Shown here one piece after another: positions 1,657 through 25,702 of a stretch of 25,702 bases of DNA. Location of the stretch: positions 1-25,702 of IMG/VR virus record IMGVR_UViG_3300006875_000144; one strand, 5' to 3'. The DNA is from a virus. The notes under the pieces are model-generated. The model was not told where the DNA came from. It worked only from the letters and a program-made list of their open reading frames with translations, and did not search any database. Both the position numbers and the translations under genes were made by a program. Numbering within the stretch: the stretch's first letter is position 1; every line of letters begins with the position of its first letter.

Positions 1657-1664
1657 GATATATA
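1657..1664 (+). promoter_or_regulatory. ATATATA box upstream of tail sheath gene
   Basis: TGATATATAGA lies between terL and the sheath gene, ending 46 bases before its ATG. It matches the GATATATA box repeated upstream of nine other genes here and is read as a phage promoter -10-like element. No GAACTT lies at the spacing seen at the 6208, 13019 and 13908 sites. The leader is unusually long for this set. Promoter activity is inferred. Confidence 0.5.
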
Positions 1665-5542: not shown

Positions 5543-5550
5543 GATATATA
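5543..5550 (+). promoter_or_regulatory. ATATATA box upstream of tail tube gene
   Basis: GGATATATAG begins 5 bases after the sheath stop and ends 25 bases before the tube ATG. The leader is AT-rich with no Shine-Dalgarno. It belongs to the shared box family, without the GAACTT upstream element. It would allow the tube to be transcribed independently of the sheath. Confidence 0.55.
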
Positions 5551-6200: not shown

Positions 6201-6233
6201 AAAATGAGAACTTTTTACTGACAAGGATATATA
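6201..6233 (+). promoter_or_regulatory. Bipartite phage promoter (GAACTT-N14-TATATA) before gp26-like gene
   Basis: GAACTT (6208-6213), 14 bases, then TATATA (6228-6233) followed by AAAG. The 16-mer AAAATGAGAACTTTTT at 6201-6216 recurs exactly at 13901-13916 with TATATAAAG at the same offset. The GAACTT and TATATA spacing is also the same at 13019-13044. It lies just downstream of the terminator at 6155 and 22 bases before the ATG at 6256. Activity is inferred from recurrence and position. Confidence 0.7.
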
Positions 6234-7585: not shown

Positions 7586-7593
7586 GATATATA
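7586..7593 (+). promoter_or_regulatory. ATATATA box upstream of the tape measure region
   Basis: TTTTGATATATAC directly abuts the terminator stem and ends 26 bases before the ATG at 7620. A GATACT at 7568-7573 stands where GAACTT occurs at the bipartite sites (14-base gap). It is a weak match and lies within the hairpin loop and stem. Confidence 0.55.
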
Positions 7594-12390: not shown

Positions 12391-12398
12391 GATATATA
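12391..12398 (+). promoter_or_regulatory. ATATATA box immediately before the 104-residue coiled-coil gene
   Basis: AAAGATATATACTAC follows the tape measure stop by 10 bases and ends only 4 bases before the ATG at 12403. If it is a -10 element the transcript would be leaderless or begin within the first codons. It is otherwise a good match to the shared box. Confidence 0.45.
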
Positions 12399-13003: not shown

Positions 13004-13018
13004 TATGCACTCTCGTTG

Positions 13019-13044
13019 GAACTTATTACATAGGTAGGTATATA
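13019..13044 (+). promoter_or_regulatory. Bipartite phage promoter (GAACTT-N14-TATATA) before hydrophobic protein and kinase
   Basis: GAACTT (13019-13024), 14 bases, then TATATA (13039-13044), the same geometry as at 6208 and 13908. The region after GAACTT (ATTAC) also resembles the TTTAC at those sites. It ends 16 bases before the ATG at 13061 and would drive the 13061-13902 pair. Confidence 0.68.
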
Positions 13045-13060
13045 ACACTAAAACATAGAT

Positions 13061-13336
13061 ATGAACGATGCAATGAAAACTGCTGAGCTTAAAGCTAAGC
13101 TCAAAAATATCTCTAACGAGGAAAAGACCAACCAGCTGTCAAACGAAATTGCTGACTCTGTAATAGCCTTTATGGCAGGTGCCGTGCGCTCACTAGCATT
13201 TGGGAGTGTTTTTTACGGAGCGCAATTAGCTATTATACAACGTATAGGTGCGTTACCACTCAACTGGATTGAAGCTGTTTGTGTTTACGCAACGTATGAA
13301 ATACTTTTAAGCACTATCAAAAAATTAAAGTCTTAA
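13061..13336 (+). CDS. Small hydrophobic (probable membrane) protein
   Basis: The protein has 91 residues and I recognise no family. A charged N-terminal helix (about 1-28, Lys/Glu-rich) is followed by two hydrophobic stretches: SVIAFMAGAVRSLAFGSVFYGAQLAI split over about 32-57, and LNWIEAVCVYATYEILLSTI over about 66-85, ending KKLKS. Two membrane-dipping or transmembrane helices are plausible. The arrangement would suit a holin-like protein, but there is no lysis context beside it and I do not claim that. Its stop overlaps the kinase start (TAATG), implying coupled translation. Confidence 0.75.
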   Translation: MNDAMKTAELKAKLKNISNEEKTNQLSNEIADSVIAFMAGAVRSLAFGSVFYGAQLAIIQRIGALPLNWIEAVCVYATYEILLSTIKKLKS

Positions 13337-13902
13337 TGAAGAAACGAGTAATACTTGTAGGAAAGTCTGCGGCAGGCAAAGACCACGCAAGAAAAATCTG
13401 CCAACAATGGCTTGGGATGAAGTACCAAGTATCCTATACAACTCGTCCGCCAAGAGATGGCGAGGAACACGGTGTAGATTATTACTTTGTTGAAAAGACT
13501 ACTTTCGAGGAAATGATTTCACAAAACTTATGGTACGAATATGTAATGTTTAACGGATGGTACTATGGGACTAGCAAAACACAAATGGAGGAAGCCAACT
13601 CAGTTTTCATTATGACCCCTGCCGGGCTATCCCATTTGTCAATTCCCGACCGAAAAGAATCTATTGTCATCTACTTTGATATTGATGAGGAAACGCGTAG
13701 AGCTCGCATGGAAAGACGTGGAGGAAACGCTGATAGTGTAGATCGCAGAATTGAAGCTGACCGCTTAGATTTTGAAACCTACACAGACTATGATGCTGTT
13801 ATTAACGTTCCATCATACTCAATAGTGGACATATACAACATAGTTTCTCAGCACATGCCATTGCCGCATAAAGATAAATTTTTTTCCGCAAAAGTTTCAT
13901 AA
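13336..13902 (+). CDS. Guanylate kinase-like nucleoside monophosphate kinase
   Basis: It would phosphorylate (d)GMP to (d)GDP for phage DNA synthesis in the cytoplasm. The protein has 188 residues (bacterial Gmk about 205). The P-loop is GKSAAGKD (9-16, K15). The guanylate-binding signature is SYTTRPPRDGEEHGVDYYFV (33-52), matching the family S-x-TTR-x-PR-x-GE-x-x-G-x-DY. GWYYGTSK (about 75-82) and a lid-like RARMERRGGNADSVDRRIE region follow. The residue after the P-loop Lys is Asp then His rather than the usual Ser/Thr, which is seen in some phage kinases but could alter activity. It is translationally coupled (TAATG) to the hydrophobic protein, and its stop region overlaps the next promoter. 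Strict substrate specificity cannot be told from sequence. Confidence 0.88.
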   Translation: MKKRVILVGKSAAGKDHARKICQQWLGMKYQVSYTTRPPRDGEEHGVDYYFVEKTTFEEMISQNLWYEYVMFNGWYYGTSKTQMEEANSVFIMTPAGLSHLSIPDRKESIVIYFDIDEETRRARMERRGGNADSVDRRIEADRLDFETYTDYDAVINVPSYSIVDIYNIVSQHMPLPHKDKFFSAKVS

Positions 13903-13933
13903 AATGAGAACTTTTTTACAATGATGTTATATA
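13901..13933 (+). promoter_or_regulatory. Bipartite phage promoter before the sigma factor operon
   Basis: The 16-mer AAAATGAGAACTTTTT (13901-13916) is identical to 6201-6216. GAACTT is at 13908-13913 and TATATA at 13928-13933 (14-base gap), followed by AAAG. It begins at the kinase stop codon and ends 21 bases before the ATG at 13955. The left part also forms an imperfect U-tailed hairpin (AAAAGTTTCAT 13890-13900 with ATGAgAACTTTT, one bulge), so it may double as the kinase terminator. Confidence 0.7.
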
Positions 13934-13954: not shown

Positions 13955-14248
13955 ATGAAAAACTACACAGTTACGCCAGCCTTCAAAACGGTTGTCACAG
14001 AAATCTTAAGCACTTTAAAATTTTCAACAGTGTTCCCTTACATGAACCTGGTAAATCGTGAAGGCTTTGCTTACAGCGAGCAAGAGCTTAACAGCATTAT
14101 CCAGTTTATGGGTGAACTACCATACTCGCAAGTTGCTGAGTTCTTCCAGGGTCTTCCTAATCATGTATCTGAGTTGGAGGCAAACGCGGAAGAAAGAACT
14201 ACTGTTGAAGAAGATACTGCAAATGTGAAAGAAGAGGTTAATATCTAA
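13955..14248 (+). CDS. Small protein upstream of sigma factor, unknown
   Basis: The protein has 97 residues and I do not recognise it. The ordered part (about 1-70) opens MKNYTVTPAFKTVVTEILSTL and includes YMNLVNREGFAYSEQELNSI and a helix ending FFQGLPNHVSELE. The last 25 residues are strongly acidic (EANAEERTTVEEDTANVKEEVNI, split) and probably disordered. The leader is AT-rich without Shine-Dalgarno. It is the first gene after the bipartite promoter at 13901 and is separated from the sigma factor gene only by a large inverted repeat that begins at its stop codon. The arrangement suggests shared regulation with the sigma gene. No function can be assigned. Confidence 0.8.
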   Translation: MKNYTVTPAFKTVVTEILSTLKFSTVFPYMNLVNREGFAYSEQELNSIIQFMGELPYSQVAEFFQGLPNHVSELEANAEERTTVEEDTANVKEEVNI

Positions 14249-14317
14249 GATAAAATTGTTAATAACTTTTAGGCTAAATAGTTTACAGATTAAACTATTT
14301 TGGTTATTTTTATCTTA
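14246..14317 (+). promoter_or_regulatory. Large nested inverted repeat in the leader of the sigma factor gene
   Basis: Three nested arms can be seen. TAAGATAAAA (14246-14255) is complementary to TTTTATCTTA (14308-14317). AATAAC (14261-14266) is complementary to GTTATT (14303-14308). AAATAGTTT (14276-14284) is complementary to AAACTATTT (14292-14300) around a 7-base loop. It spans 72 bases from the stop codon of the 97-residue gene to 33 bases before the sigma ATG. All stems are A/T-rich. It could be an attenuator, an RNA stability element or an operator. No strong U-tract follows the outer stem, so it is not a standard terminator. Confidence 0.65.
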
Positions 14318-14350
14318 AATAAAACAAAACCTTTTTATACACATTTATCT

Positions 14351-14956
14351 ATGCAGGAAAATCTTTCACTACAAGAAATGGCATTACGCTTCCACGAGAG
14401 CCGAAGCGAATCTGACTTCACACGTTTGTACCACCGTCTTAAACCGGGTATTAGCGTCTACCTTAAGGACATGATTCCAAGTTGGGACGACCGTGAAGAA
14501 GTTATTGCAACTACATTTTCAAAAGTCTGGAGTAAAATCCACCAGTACGACCCATACTGGAATTTTAGTACATGGGTCTATCGCATTGCACGTAATGAGG
14601 CATTGCTCTTTTTCCGCGCTAAACGTAAAACATACTCTTACGAGGCGATGGAAGAAAAAGGAATCAACATGGCAGCAAAAGCCGGCTATGTTGAAGCAGG
14701 GTTTGACGAAGATGAAAACCCAATGGAAATGCTACACGGCATGGTCTTAGACGAGATTTACGCTCTTCCTGATTGCTACAAATCTGTCTTAACTCTTCGT
14801 GAAGTCGAAAAGAAAAAGTATGAAGAAATTGCCGAGGAGCTTGGCATGAAAATCAACACAGTTCGCACGCGCATACATAAGGCACGTCGCATCATTCGAG
14901 GCGAAATTGCCAAGAAAGCTCCAGCGTTGCTTAAACAGTACCAAGAAATCATATGA
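14351..14956 (+). CDS. ECF-type RNA polymerase sigma factor
   Basis: The protein has 201 residues and should redirect host RNA polymerase to phage promoters. Sigma region 2 (about 23-93) has FTRLYHRLKPGISVYL, DDREEVIATTFSKVWSKI and the hallmark FSTWVYRIARNEALLFFRAKRK split across 72-93. After an acidic linker (about 94-135), region 4 (about 139-186) has LPDCYKSVLTLREVEKKKYEEIAEELG and the recognition helix INTVRTRIHKARRIIR. Regions 1 and 3 are absent, as in ECF factors. The ATG at 14351 is preferred over a TTG at 14300, which lies in the inverted repeat and would add unrelated hydrophobic residues. The gene has no TATATA box of its own and follows the promoter at 13901. T4 uses gp55, a divergent sigma, for late genes; an analogous role is inferred. 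The next gene overlaps it (ATGA). Confidence 0.93.
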   Translation: MQENLSLQEMALRFHESRSESDFTRLYHRLKPGISVYLKDMIPSWDDREEVIATTFSKVWSKIHQYDPYWNFSTWVYRIARNEALLFFRAKRKTYSYEAMEEKGINMAAKAGYVEAGFDEDENPMEMLHGMVLDEIYALPDCYKSVLTLREVEKKKYEEIAEELGMKINTVRTRIHKARRIIRGEIAKKAPALLKQYQEII

Positions 14957-15414
14957 AATGGTTAGCCCGTCCCTTTATTGCAATCAAAGAAATCTGGTAT
15001 GAACTGCGCAATTGGCGCTACGTCAAGCAGATTATTCGTGAACATCGCAACACCGCTGACTGGGAACAGTTTAACTTAAGAGCTGATTGGGTAGGGCGCA
15101 TTTATACAGTGATGAATCCACAGTTGCCTTCGGACAAAGGTGATACATCTGAAGTGCTAAAGCTTAAGTATGCCGAGCGCATTAAGCCGATGAACTTGTA
15201 CCTGGATAAATTAGGCCTGGGACAATACGTCACAGTGGCATACGAAGAAATTGAAGGGTCAGACTCTCTACTGGTAGTATACGTTCCTATCTTTGAAACG
15301 CTTACTACGTGGAAAGTTTTCTGGTTCATCGTATTCTGGCTGGTATTTTTTCTTACAAAACTTGACACTTATACGTACCAAGGGCTCTCTTGGTTGTGGA
15401 ACTTAATCTTTTGA
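14953..15414 (+). CDS. Single-pass membrane protein coupled to the sigma factor
   Basis: The protein has 153 residues. The ATG overlaps the sigma stop (ATGA), so the two should be made together. The N-terminal 115 residues are soluble-looking and basic at first (KWLARPFIAIKEIWYELRNW), then mixed (WVGRIYTVMNPQLPSDKGD, LGLGQYVTVAYEEIEGSDSLLVVYVPIFE). One strongly hydrophobic segment at about 118-135 (TWKVFWFIVFWLVFFLTKL) is followed by a short aromatic tail. In bacteria the gene coupled to an ECF sigma is often a membrane-anchored anti-sigma factor. This one lacks any anti-sigma motif I can name (no HxxxCxxC), so that role is only positional inference. It could equally be an unrelated phage membrane protein. 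Confidence 0.82.
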   Translation: MKWLARPFIAIKEIWYELRNWRYVKQIIREHRNTADWEQFNLRADWVGRIYTVMNPQLPSDKGDTSEVLKLKYAERIKPMNLYLDKLGLGQYVTVAYEEIEGSDSLLVVYVPIFETLTTWKVFWFIVFWLVFFLTKLDTYTYQGLSWLWNLIF

Positions 15415-15420
15415 TGTGAA

Positions 15421-15426
15421 TATATA
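15421..15426 (+). promoter_or_regulatory. TATATA box upstream of the 193-residue coiled-coil gene
   Basis: GAATATATAAAGAG lies 4 bases after the membrane protein stop and 19 bases before the ATG at 15446. GAACTT occurs at 15399-15404 but with a 16-base gap instead of 14. The leader AAACAAAAAAAC matches that of the gp26-like gene. Confidence 0.6.
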
Positions 15427-15445: not shown

Positions 15446-16027
15446 ATGGAAAAACAAGAAAGCACAATTGAAATTGTCTCTAAAAAAGAGCAGATTGTAG
15501 AGTTGAACAAGAAGCGTCAACAAATGGTAGAATTCCTTGACCGTAAAATCGAGAACAAGGAAAAAGCGTTAGAAGGAAAACGCTATGTGGTAGAAGGAAA
15601 AGAAAGTATTGGCGAAAAACTTATCACCTTTTTGAAGGATGATGCTCAGTGGAAATTCACAGAGGCTTTAGGTATTGTAGAATCTCTAAAGCAGGTAGAG
15701 GAGGCAGTAAAATCTGTAAAGACTAAAAAGACGTCTGAGCTTTTACTACCATCTTTAGCTCTTGAGGCCGTGTATTACTTTCTAACTAAGGTTGAAGGTA
15801 CTGGAACTCTTAACGCTGAAGCTTTTATCGCACTGCTAAAACCAGTATCTGATGCATTAGGCCGTTCAAAACAAGAACGTCAGGAAATTGACCAACTTGT
15901 TCGTGACCGTGGAACTCTTGAATCTGCTATTGACTCTGGCGTGGACATTGAAAATGAAGACGATATCCTAAAAGAGATACAGGCTGAGATGGAATTTGAA
16001 ATGCAATCTGAGACTGCAAAAAACTAA
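15446..16027 (+). CDS. Coiled-coil protein, unknown function
   Basis: The protein has 193 residues and is not recognised. The N-terminal 60 residues are a highly charged helix (EQIVELNKKRQQMVEFLDRKIENKEKALEG, split) predicted to form a coiled coil. The middle section has FLKDDAQWKFTEALGIVESLKQVEEAV and a more hydrophobic ELLLPSLALEAVYYFLTKVEG (about 105-125). The C-terminal 45 residues are acidic (DIENEDDILKEIQAEMEFEM). It looks soluble and helical. It is the first gene of a cluster with the two membrane proteins that follow (6-base and 1-base gaps), so it may act with them at the membrane. The start is supported by the TATATA box and an A-rich leader shared with the gp26-like gene. Confidence 0.82.
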   Translation: MEKQESTIEIVSKKEQIVELNKKRQQMVEFLDRKIENKEKALEGKRYVVEGKESIGEKLITFLKDDAQWKFTEALGIVESLKQVEEAVKSVKTKKTSELLLPSLALEAVYYFLTKVEGTGTLNAEAFIALLKPVSDALGRSKQERQEIDQLVRDRGTLESAIDSGVDIENEDDILKEIQAEMEFEMQSETAKN

Positions 16028-16033
16028 AAACCA

Positions 16034-16324
16034 ATGAATAAGTTTAACGACTTCATAAATAAGCACTTCACCAAGATAGCCTTGGTGATGTTGCTTCTTG
16101 TGTTCTTCAACACGTGCGGAAACCCTAACGTGGGAACTAACAAACGTATCGATGCATTAACTAAAGAGGTGGATTCTCTTAAGAATGATGTGGCCACTCG
16201 CAAAGATTTGCAAATAGAGGGTCTAAAGGCAGAGAAGCGTATGATACAGTCTACTGACCGTAAGATGCTAGACGTGCAAAGGCAAACTGCTATTGATGCG
16301 GAGCTGAAAAAATTAGAAAAGTAA
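16034..16324 (+). CDS. Membrane-anchored coiled-coil protein (lipoprotein or spanin-like)
   Basis: The protein has 96 residues. The N-terminus carries a basic stretch (NKHFTK), a hydrophobic segment IALVMLLLVFFNT (about 15-27) and a Cys at 28. The rest is a charged helix (RIDALTKEVDSLKNDVATRK to LKKLEK) predicted as a coiled coil. The topology (N-terminal anchor, periplasmic coiled coil) is that of an inner-membrane spanin. If the Cys is lipidated (FNTC, a poor lipobox) it would be a lipoprotein. No lysis genes are visible nearby, so either label is tentative. It lies 6 bases after the coiled-coil gene and 1 base before the next membrane protein gene. Confidence 0.78.
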   Translation: MNKFNDFINKHFTKIALVMLLLVFFNTCGNPNVGTNKRIDALTKEVDSLKNDVATRKDLQIEGLKAEKRMIQSTDRKMLDVQRQTAIDAELKKLEK

Positions 16325-16325
16325 A

Positions 16326-17129
16326 ATGAATCAAAAGAGGCTAAAATACTTCATCATTGGTACATTCGTCTCGCTTTATGCAATAGTTAGCGTTATTTCA
16401 ACTATACACGTGATAGACTTTTTTCGTCTATCCAACCCTGATTGGTTAGCAGTATCACTAGCCATTGCCTTTGAAATTGGAGCAGCCGCATCCCTGGCTT
16501 CTCTAATCGCCTTAAAGAAGATGAACAAAACTCTTGTATGGGCTCTCTTTATTACACTAACTGGAATGCAGATGATGGGTAATACATACTACGCGTACAC
16601 AAACCTGGAAGACTATCAAAGTTGGGTAGAACTTTTTGGTCTGGTAGACGCTGAACCTATTACACAAAAAAGAATACTTTCACTTGTAAGTGGAGCGGTT
16701 CTTCCGTTAGTTGCTTTAGGATTTATCAAATCCCTGGTTGATTACATTAAGCCAGAAGAGGATGCTGCGGCAACTATAGAGGAAACTCCTAAAGATTGGA
16801 ACGAGGATGCCAAGAGAGTATGGAAGCACGTACAAAAAATGCGCGACGAAGGAGTTTATCCTGAAGCAACAGCTGAAGAAATTGCAGACGAACCAACGGC
16901 ATTAGCAAATTCAAAGTACCGTGAAGAGTACGCCGAGGATGACTATGAAGACTACGCCGAAGGGGAACTATATACCGAGGATCAAAAAAGACAAGTCCTT
17001 ACTGATGTAGAGGAAGCTCGCACTGAACTTACCGAGGATGACATCGAAAAGTACAAAGAAAAATCCAGAATAGAACCCAAGAACGATGGAGGTTCAAGCA
17101 ATCCGCAAATAGTTCCAGGCGTTAACTAA
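16326..17129 (+). CDS. Four-helix membrane protein with long acidic tail
   Basis: The protein has 267 residues. Four hydrophobic segments are visible at about 8-30 (YFIIGTFVSLYAIVSVIST), 41-62 (LAVSLAIAFEIGAAASLASL), 68-88 (TLVWALFITLTGMQMMG) and 118-137 (ILSLVSGAVLPLVALGF). A soluble tail of about 125 residues follows, extremely rich in Glu/Asp/Tyr (EEYAEDDYEDYAEGELYTED). By the positive-inside rule both ends are probably cytoplasmic. It starts 1 base after the preceding stop, so it is in one operon with the two upstream coiled-coil genes. I recognise no family. A role at the host inner membrane (lysis control, superinfection exclusion, replication tethering) is possible but unproven. Confidence 0.85.
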   Translation: MNQKRLKYFIIGTFVSLYAIVSVISTIHVIDFFRLSNPDWLAVSLAIAFEIGAAASLASLIALKKMNKTLVWALFITLTGMQMMGNTYYAYTNLEDYQSWVELFGLVDAEPITQKRILSLVSGAVLPLVALGFIKSLVDYIKPEEDAAATIEETPKDWNEDAKRVWKHVQKMRDEGVYPEATAEEIADEPTALANSKYREEYAEDDYEDYAEGELYTEDQKRQVLTDVEEARTELTEDDIEKYKEKSRIEPKNDGGSSNPQIVPGVN

Positions 17130-18292: not shown

Positions 18293-18783
18293 TGTATACT
18301 AAAACACAGATTGATGAAGGTGTTGCTCTTGCAGGCGGTGCTTACCGTGTGCAGTGGGGCGAGTATGGTGAGTCATACTATAAAAACCCTACGCCGCCAG
18401 ACATCTACTATGAGTACCTCTACGTGCTAGACTGGCAAACTCCAGAGAGTGTTATCAAAGTACAAGTTGACCAACTTGTAGATTTTATGCGCGATGGGGA
18501 GTATCTAGAAAAAGCTTTCAGCGTACTCGAAGAAGCTTTCGGCGCTGTGATAAGTACAATACCAATAGTCCCTGATGGAGAAACCACAGCAGAAGACTGG
18601 GCGCTGGTTTGCGTTGGCGGATTTACTGGAATAGCACCAACACTAAGCGAGGCTAAATGGCAGGCAGTTGGACTATGGGGACTTGAAAACCTGTATGAGG
18701 ATGCAACTCAAGGCTATCTGAAAATAGGCACCAATGAAGGAGCAGTCTTCATGATAGATGAAAATACATACTTGACGCTATGA
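18292..18783 (+). CDS. Unknown protein between structural protein and collagen-like fibre
   Basis: The protein has 163 residues and is not recognised. It is acidic and aromatic, opening [20 protein letters not shown] and then [21 protein letters not shown] helix with [20 protein letters not shown] precedes a C-terminal part with Trp-rich helices ([19 protein letters not shown]) and a beta end ([14 protein letters not shown]). Both ends overlap neighbours: TAATG with the structural gene upstream and ATGA with the fibre gene downstream, so expression is tightly linked to both. Likely roles are fibre connector or assembly protein. This is inference from position only. Confidence 0.8.
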
Positions 18784-19970
18784 CCGGACCTTTTGTAAAT
18801 AAGACTATATATGACCTGCCTGAGATATTTACACTAGGGACGGGCAATTTTATACTTGTAGGAGGAGTTACTGGCGAGAAACTTGCCAGAATTTCGCAAG
18901 AATACTTTGGGCTTACTGGAGCAACTGGAGCAACCGGTGCTGTAGGAGCAACTGGAGCAACTGGAGCAACTGGAGCAACTGGCCCACAAGGCGTACCTGG
19001 TAGTTCTAGCTCCTTTTTTAACTACAAGGCAAATACAACAGTAAATACAGGCGACCCTGGAAGAGGGTTTATCTCATGGAATAACCCTACACAGATTAGC
19101 TCAACTATCATTACCGTCAATATGATAGCATCTAATGGGATTGACATTGATTTGTTTCTTGCAAACATAGCAAGCGGCAATACAATCTATATACAAGATG
19201 CCGCGATTTCAAACTACTATCAAGAGTGGATAGTTAATGGTGCGCCTATACAATATGGAACAAGCCCTGATTTTTACTGGGAGATTCCTGTAACTTATGT
19301 AAGTGGAGGCTACTCTTTCTCGGCTGATGAAGACATTATTTTTGTTCCAATTACTACTGGTCCTCAGGGTCCTCAAGGCGATACGGGAGCTACTGGTCCT
19401 CAAGGCGATACGGGAGCTACTGGTCCTCAGGGTCCTCAAGGCGATACGGGAGCTACTGGTCCTCAAGGCGATACGGGAGCTACTGGTCCTCAGGGTCCTC
19501 AAGGCGATACTGGTACTACAGGGCAAACCGTTGACACAGTTCTTGGCTCCGGGACGCTAAGCATAACAACTACAGATACCACATACACTACTATAACAGG
19601 TCTAACACAAACTTTATCTTTCTCAGGAAGTTCGTATCAAGTAATACATGCTTCGTTAGGGCTATCGTTAGCAACATCAGCAACCACTAATGCTGTAATA
19701 GCTAACGTAGGAATTTTTGTTGATGGCATTATAGCAGAAGGTGGATATCGAACAGTTGTAGTCGGGCCAGGCATATCAGGTATCGCTTCCGGTAATCAAA
19801 CGCAAGTAAATTGCAATTTACAGCATTCTGTGCAGTTATCACCAGGCTCGCACACAATCGATGTTCGTGTACAATACGTGAATCGTATAGGAACATCATC
19901 ATTAAACGTCAGCTCTGGCAATGGTGGCACAAGAAGAGGCGTTCTTAGCGTCATAACACTAAATACATAG
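18780..19970 (+). CDS. Collagen-like tail fibre protein
   Basis: The protein has 396 residues and is presumably a trimeric host-binding fibre. The head domain (about 1-43) has [20 protein letters not shown] and [10 protein letters not shown]. Next come a first Gly-X-Y block (18909-19001, mostly GAT repeats), a globular insert (about 75-190) with strands such as [15 protein letters not shown] and [16 protein letters not shown], and a second Gly-X-Y block (19359-19530, [12 protein letters not shown]). The C-terminal ~150-residue beta domain has [28 protein letters not shown] and [19 protein letters not shown], which resembles jelly-roll heads that trimerise collagen-like proteins. The Gly-X-Thr repeats favour Thr, a possible glycosylation target. 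The second block contains a near-perfect 63-bp tandem repeat. Confidence 0.9.
19359..19510 (+). repeat. 63-bp perfect tandem repeat in collagen-like fibre gene
   Basis: Two identical 63-base units (19359-19421 and 19422-19484) and the first 26 bases of a third (19485-19510). Each unit encodes 21 residues: [12 protein letters not shown] plus GPQGDTGAT. The synonymous codons do not differ between copies, unlike the older repeats in the tape measure, so the expansion is recent or being homogenised. The length is a multiple of 9, so copy changes keep frame and collagen phase. Confidence 0.95.
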
Positions 19971-20315: not shown

Positions 20316-20323
20316 GATATATA
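20316..20323 (+). promoter_or_regulatory. ATATATA box upstream of the 179-residue protein gene
   Basis: TTGATATATAGAAAA ends 17 bases before the ATG at 20341. It lies inside the first codons of a longer TTG-start reading frame (from 20314), which supports choosing the downstream ATG. No GAACTT is present at the 14-base spacing. Confidence 0.6.
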
Positions 20324-20905: not shown

Positions 20906-20913
20906 GATATATA
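20906..20913 (+). promoter_or_regulatory. ATATATA box upstream of UVR-motif protein and giant fibre
   Basis: TTTTGATATATAAAGAAAA ends 20 bases before the ATG at 20934. It is a full match to the TATATAAAG form at 6228, 13928 and 15421. TTACTT occurs at 20886-20891 with a 16-base gap, resembling the GAACTT at 15399 in position. It would drive the 20934-25702 pair. Confidence 0.6.

Positions 20914-21341: not shown

Positions 21342-25702
<4,361 letters not shown>

Follow-up and report, generated by a model that had tools for sequence, protein, structure and literature searches.

An ECF-type sigma factor and its adjoining membrane protein in T4-related phages: a probable two-sigma organization

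Phage sigma factors are usually discussed as single switches for late genes, as exemplified by T4 gp55. The T4 late promoter read by gp55, TATAAATA, lies at -13 to -6 (PMC1524935). ECF sigma factors have a characteristic two-domain build, and their promoters carry AAC-type -35 boxes, which are a hallmark of the group, and usually a CGT-type -10 (PMC8103513). T4-like (group 2) jumbo phages are known to encode both minimal and fuller sigma factors (PMC7824862; the text of that survey does not mention ECF), and ECF-type sigmas are already present in records of crAss-like and Lak phages. A literature search combining ECF sigma factors with crAss-like phages found nothing, and no precedent for an ECF-type sigma combined with gp55 and paired promoter classes emerged from the papers searched.

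The window analyzed here is a virus record of 25.7 kb, probably a fragment, in which the named cluster genes all lie on one strand. It encodes a T4-type terminase, a tail sheath, a tail tube, a gp26-like protein, a tape-measure-like protein of 1,488 residues that contains numerous hydrophobic segments, a guanylate kinase, the sigma factor, ORF2 to ORF5 and collagen-like fibre proteins; the labels gp26-like, tube and tape-measure-like were assigned from position, length and composition. The guanylate kinase gene (13336-13902; phrog_1815 in PHROG, 1e-39) lies between the tape-measure and sigma genes and is kept in most sigma-bearing relatives, and the long collagen-like Gly-X-Y repeat proteins at 18780-19970 and 21342-25700 are likely tail fibres. 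The sigma-bearing phages are a clade of large, contractile-tailed, T4-related phages. In the terminase tree they group with the sigma-less contig L109, the order within the group being unresolved; the gp26-like tree does not resolve the phages. Their hosts are probably Bacteroidota, since TATATTTG, found upstream of the sigma gene in several relatives, fits the Bacteroidota promoter consensus TAnnTTTG (PMC10309648). The central features are the following.

13955..14248, + strand: g11, a 97-aa protein encoded 5' of the sigma gene and preceded by an ECF-like bipartite element (gene order, promoter element scan)
14256..14349, + strand: region 5' of the sigma gene, with TTGTTAATAACTTTT (14256-14270), an A/T-rich hairpin (14277-14300) and a T-rich stretch
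14351..14956, + strand: ECF-type sigma factor, 201 aa, regions 2 and 4 only (Pfam Sigma70_r2 and Sigma70_r4_2; PDB SigW and sigma E; NCBIfam TIGR02985)
14953..15414, + strand: ORF2, a 153-aa protein with an alpha/beta domain and a C-terminal membrane helix (ORF call, hydrophobicity, model, homologues with and without an adjacent sigma)
15446..16027, + strand: ORF3, a 193-aa helical protein, the usual 3' neighbour of ORF2 (gene order, model pLDDT 90.5, structural matches)
16034..16324, + strand: ORF4, an N-terminal membrane helix and coiled coil, weakly Rz-spanin-like (phrog_739, E=0.001; conserved order)
16326..17129, + strand: ORF5, a 267-aa multi-pass membrane protein (hydrophobicity, conserved order)

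The sigma reading frame begins with ATG at 14351 and ends with TGA at 14954-14956; an in-frame TTG is present at 14300. Both Pfam domains exceed their curated cut-offs (Sigma70_r2, 8e-11; Sigma70_r4_2, 1e-13), region 2 spanning residues 25-92 and region 4 residues 134-179. The protein therefore consists of sigma2 and sigma4 domains only, with a short linker (residues 92-134) that falls within the under-50-residue limit for ECF sigmas. Its nearest solved relatives in a PDB search are ECF sigmas, Bacillus subtilis SigW (2.6e-24) and Escherichia coli sigma E (5e-18). The top NCBIfam match is TIGR02985 (Sig70_bacteroi1, a Bacteroidota ECF subfamily), at 1.3e-25 but under the model's cut-off. The protein belongs to PHROG family phrog_1740 and does not match the gp55 family, phrog_234. 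Relatives in IMG/VR (n=25) are 39-70% identical and have invariant residues in both regions. Judged from its domains and conservation, the window sigma is probably a working phage-encoded ECF-type sigma.

The sigma stop codon overlaps the ORF2 start as ATGA, and an ORF2 homologue directly follows the sigma gene in 25 of 25 IMG/VR sigma relatives, starting -7 to +16 nt from the sigma end. The pair is therefore not due to chance. An ORF2 profile scan added two further contigs carrying the pair (L031 and L033). The original prediction, a complete sigma with regions 2 and 4 in 201 residues, overlapping by ATGA a 153-residue protein with one C-terminal membrane segment and set amid phage structural genes, is borne out in each of these respects by the domain matches, ORF coordinates, hydrophobicity, model and neighbouring genes, and the conservation in related phages that it proposed to check is complete among the IMG/VR sigma relatives found. 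Its placement of the pair at 14246-15414 needs adjustment, as 14246 lies about 105 bases 5' of the sigma start. Of its wider proposal, that the phage carries its own regulated sigma system, the phage-borne ECF-type sigma, the tight coupling of the membrane gene to it and the conserved pairing are supported; ORF2 as the cognate anti-sigma is not supported.

The explanation that we favor, with moderate confidence, is that the phage uses two sigmas, the ECF-type one reading a bipartite promoter class, and that ORF2 is an independent member of a membrane module, not a dedicated anti-sigma. Two classes of promoter-like element were distinguished: class A, which is T4-late-like and consists of GATATATA alone, and class B, in which AAC(T/C) precedes TATA(T/A)A by 18-21 nt (a box about 16 nt upstream) and forms an ECF-like -35. 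Class A elements were located in the window by motif scan as follows.

1657..1664, + strand: GATATATA before the tail sheath gene
5543..5550, + strand: GATATATA before the tail tube gene
7586..7593, + strand: GATATATA before 7620
12391..12398, + strand: GATATATA before 12403
20316..20323, + strand: GATATATA before 20341
20906..20913, + strand: GATATATA before 20934

In the window GATATATA occurs seven times upstream of genes, and it occurs neither in the 24,987 nt of coding sequence nor on the reverse strand; the seven intergenic copies compare with 0.45 expected and a maximum of five in 2,000 resamplings. The clade as a whole has 59 copies, whose median distance to the start codon is 29 nt and which are not generally accompanied by a second element further upstream. 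The motif is similar to the T4 late promoter. Most tail genes carry this T4-late-like element and lack an ECF-type -35. Homologues of gp55 (phrog_234; 8e-13 to 1e-15, frames of 114-163 aa) are encoded in five relatives with larger contigs (G003-G007). One of these phages additionally carries, in L103 (G004:192191-192631, minus strand), a second, divergent ECF-type sigma in a 207-aa frame alongside its main sigma and gp55 homologue.

The ECF-type sigma as the late sigma reading GATATATA was our first leading idea and was dropped on finding the gp55 homologues. In this account the ECF-type sigma would be the main late sigma, in place of gp55. The strong, strand-specific enrichment of GATATATA some 29 nt before structural gene starts in sigma-bearing loci is consistent with it, as is the absence of GATATATA from the upstream regions of contig G001 and of the stretches of phages PTm1 and PAU that were examined. 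We nevertheless consider it unlikely: the same phages encode gp55 homologues, and GATATATA resembles the element that gp55 reads and usually has no -35 partner, whereas the window sigma has an intact region 4. The suggestion that the ECF-type sigma times late transcription is weakened by the presence of the gp55-like late sigma in the clade and by the composition of most tail-gene promoters.

ORF2 is co-directional with the sigma gene and overlaps it, yet has no anti-sigma signature. In the model of the protein (pLDDT 90) the elements run helix-strand-helix-strand-strand and end in the C-terminal membrane helix, modelled over residues 119-152; the single hydrophobic segment covers residues 116-134. 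The profile search and structure prediction that had been proposed for this protein were both run: no anti-sigma profile matched, and the alpha/beta fold is unlike the helical anti-sigma domains of the RseA/RsiW type. No Pfam match rose above cut-off among 20 members checked, no PHROG or NCBIfam family was matched, and the ORF2 profile found no relative among PDB sequences. ORF2 contains no cysteine and therefore no zinc anti-sigma motif. Searches with the model gave no PDB structure at E<0.1 and eight uncharacterized phage proteins at E<0.001. No relative was found in bacterial genomes, and the window ORF2 had no match in the phage collection searched.

ORF2 is separable from the sigma gene. 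In G001 (L054/L109) the gene order is tape measure-ORF2-ORF3-ORF4-ORF5-g17; the sigma, guanylate kinase and g7-g11 genes are all missing from this stretch. The 239.8-kb record G002 carries an ORF2 homologue found by the ORF2 profile scan. The ECF profile matched nothing in the G001 and G002 records, a result that covers the sequence in these possibly fragmentary records. A 460-aa sigma-70-like protein (phrog_351, 2e-13) is encoded divergently beside the G002 homologue (L055:3517-4899, minus strand). In three phages of 635-735 kb (LR756502, LR745206 and LR756501), ORF2 comes immediately after a gene for a hydrophobic tape-measure-like protein. The nearest sigma relative lies about 185 kb from ORF2 in LR756502 and more than 100 kb away in LR745206 and LR756504, with positions in the latter two taken from separate searches. 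The LR756502 ORF2, used as a query against the phage collection, matches only giant phages. Close behind ORF2, four giant phages have in common a protein of 143-154 aa (L098:14074-14505, L115:12451-12882, L116:12774-13226 and L117:13262-13726), the L098 copy of which matches phrog_11269 at 2.6e-5.

Could ORF2 be a membrane-anchored anti-sigma of new fold, holding the sigma at the inner membrane until a signal releases it? The sigma-ORF2 adjacency, with overlap or near-overlap in all 25 relatives, is as expected for such a pair, and the topology, an N-terminal soluble domain with a C-terminal membrane helix, fits. As a separate promoter-like element usually stands before ORF3, ORF2 may share a transcript with sigma; L025 has three ORFs between ORF2 and ORF3 and none between sigma and ORF2. 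Against this, several lineages (G001, G002 and the giant phages) keep ORF2 with no sigma next to it, including those where the ECF profile finds nothing; ORF2 lacks an anti-sigma profile, fold or zinc motif; and almost no protein extends beyond the membrane helix for signal sensing. We regard this account as unlikely, and the original proposal that the coupled protein is an anti-sigma is not borne out. Since every member keeps ORF2 tightly coupled to sigma, some functional link between the two may exist. Most likely, ORF2 is an old phage gene in its own right, not the off-switch of the sigma.

In the favored two-sigma reading ORF2 and ORF3, here with ORF4 and ORF5, probably form an old phage membrane module, with the tape-measure gene as the other usual neighbour. 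A structure search with the ORF3 model (pLDDT 90.5) finds only phage proteins, including A0A5S9ERK9 of Tenacibaculum phage PTm1, and both PTm1 and phage ctL4h4 occur in the structural match lists of ORF2 and ORF3 alike. The PTm1 ORF2-like and ORF3-like matches agree in length with two successive genes (153 and 190 aa); A0A5S9ERK9, a weak match at E=8e-3, equals in length the gene after the ORF2-like gene. The ORF2 profile found no match in PTm1 and PAU sequences and profile alignment of ORF2 to PTm1 genes was not significant, so the PTm1 link is one of structure and gene order. The PTm1 genome has no Sigma70_r2 match. Profile comparison did not link the window ORF3 to the genes after ORF2 in the giant phages or G002. 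The simplest reading is that ORF2 adjoined the tape-measure gene before sigma came between; the terminase tree is compatible both with loss of the sigma gene from G001 and with its original absence there. A part for the module in assembling the tail, in DNA entry or in excluding other phages is guesswork prompted by its tape-measure neighbour.

Class B elements, and one class B-like element, were found in the window at these positions.

6206..6233, + strand: GAGAACTTT...GATATATA before the gp26-like gene (6256) (motif scan)
13018..13044, + strand: GGAACTT...TATATA before 13061 (motif scan)
13906..13933, + strand: GAGAACTTT...TATATA before g11 (13955) (motif scan)
15398..15426, + strand: class B-like GGAACTT...TATATA before ORF3 (15446), with the -35 inside the coding end of ORF2 and possibly incidental

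AAC(T/C) lies 18-21 nt before TATAWA in 35 of 84 upstream regions; other spacings give about 3.5 for a window of the same width, and 9 of 131 coding controls contain the pair. It is concentrated by gene, recurring ahead of baseplate-like, guanylate-kinase-cluster and sigma-proximal genes: 28 of 30 upstream regions of gp26-like, g9 and g11 genes carry it and none of 33 upstream regions of tape-measure, tube, g21, g22 and similar genes do (Fisher 7e-16, for a post hoc gene grouping and related loci). The AAC box is missing from 2 of 13 gp26-like upstream regions, though these phages carry the sigma. In the giant-phage loci L098 and L115-L117, AACT/TATAWA pairs occur in 6 of 35 upstream regions; most sigma-less contigs yielded 0-2 TATAWA upstream regions, too few for a negative control. 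Class A sites outnumber class B sites genome-wide in G003 and G004, and the class B set therefore looks small. The GGAACTT seen twice in the window is the -35 box of E. coli RpoE (PMC8103513). The class B -10 is TATA(T/A)A, not CGT, and is shared with class A.

From the ECF-like -35 we infer that class B is read by the ECF-type sigma. Because the TATA-like -10 is common to both classes, class B could also be read by gp55 together with another -35-binding protein. T4 middle transcription is a precedent for a separate -35-binding activator. In such an arrangement the ECF-type sigma would act elsewhere, for example on host genes. We consider this improbable, given that an AAC -35 is an ECF hallmark (PMC8103513) and that the locus itself encodes a sigma of this type. 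It is quite improbable that a tail-module membrane protein was recruited as a new-fold anti-sigma, which would combine two sigmas and two promoter classes with membrane-controlled timing. That the sigma is a host acquisition of little or no role, kept by chance, is very improbable indeed: its best NCBIfam match is to a Bacteroidota ECF subfamily, but it is conserved in position and sequence across its diverse relatives, with invariant residues in both regions.

Under the favored two-sigma explanation, the ECF-type sigma would probably be expressed from its own promoter. The 14256..14349 region contains neither GATATATA nor an AAC/TATAWA pair. With regard to positive autoregulation, a trait of ECF sigmas, the nearest class B element in the window lies one gene upstream, before g11, with none directly before sigma. 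Since neither class is present there and TATATTTG of several relatives fits TAnnTTTG, we infer that sigma is expressed before, or apart from, the late genes. TTGTTAATAACTT is usually present upstream of the sigma gene; TTGTTAATAACTTTT recurs before it in most relatives and before other genes in L108. The sigma may then guide host RNA polymerase to a small set of phage class B promoters, most of them ahead of the gp26-like, g9/guanylate-kinase and g11 genes and in some cases ahead of ORF3, and most other tail promoters, with GATATATA only, would be better suited to the gp55-like sigma. ORF2 would be a C-terminally anchored membrane protein of the old module, the sigma gene having been inserted between tape measure and ORF2 in this clade, and the sigma-ORF2 overlap may reflect compact gene packing or co-expression.

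One clade appears to carry both a gp55-like and an ECF-type sigma, with two separable promoter classes in the tail-gene region, and this likely two-sigma, two-promoter organization is a more interesting feature than the sigma-ORF2 pair. If correct, it offers a testable transcription programme in uncultured large phages that probably infect Bacteroidota. The analysis also defines a widespread, unnamed ORF2-ORF3 membrane module beside the tape-measure gene, and cautions that position alone is insufficient for calling a membrane gene an anti-sigma.

Compared with membrane anti-sigmas of the RseA, RsiW and FecR types, ORF2 is alike in being encoded just after an ECF sigma and in having one membrane segment, and differs in its lack of a profile match and of cysteine, its alpha/beta fold and its retention without an adjacent sigma. 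The window sigma resembles the Bacteroidota-type and SigW/RpoE-type ECF sigmas in having regions 2 and 4 only, a short linker and the corresponding profile and PDB matches, and its candidate targets resemble ECF promoters in their AAC -35 box, with GGAACTT in two cases. Unlike these, it is phage-encoded in a tail-gene cluster, has a candidate TATA-like -10 and has no recognizable anti-sigma partner. The ECF-type sigmas of crAss-like, Lak and giant phages are its homologues (24-30% identity, phrog_1740), but no ORF2-like neighbour was detected beside them, and giant-phage ORF2 lies far from sigma where both could be placed. T4 gp55 is likewise a phage sigma using the host polymerase, has a homologue in the same clade and reads a promoter that GATATATA resembles; it is a member of phrog_234, whereas the window sigma falls in phrog_1740 and includes regions 2 and 4.
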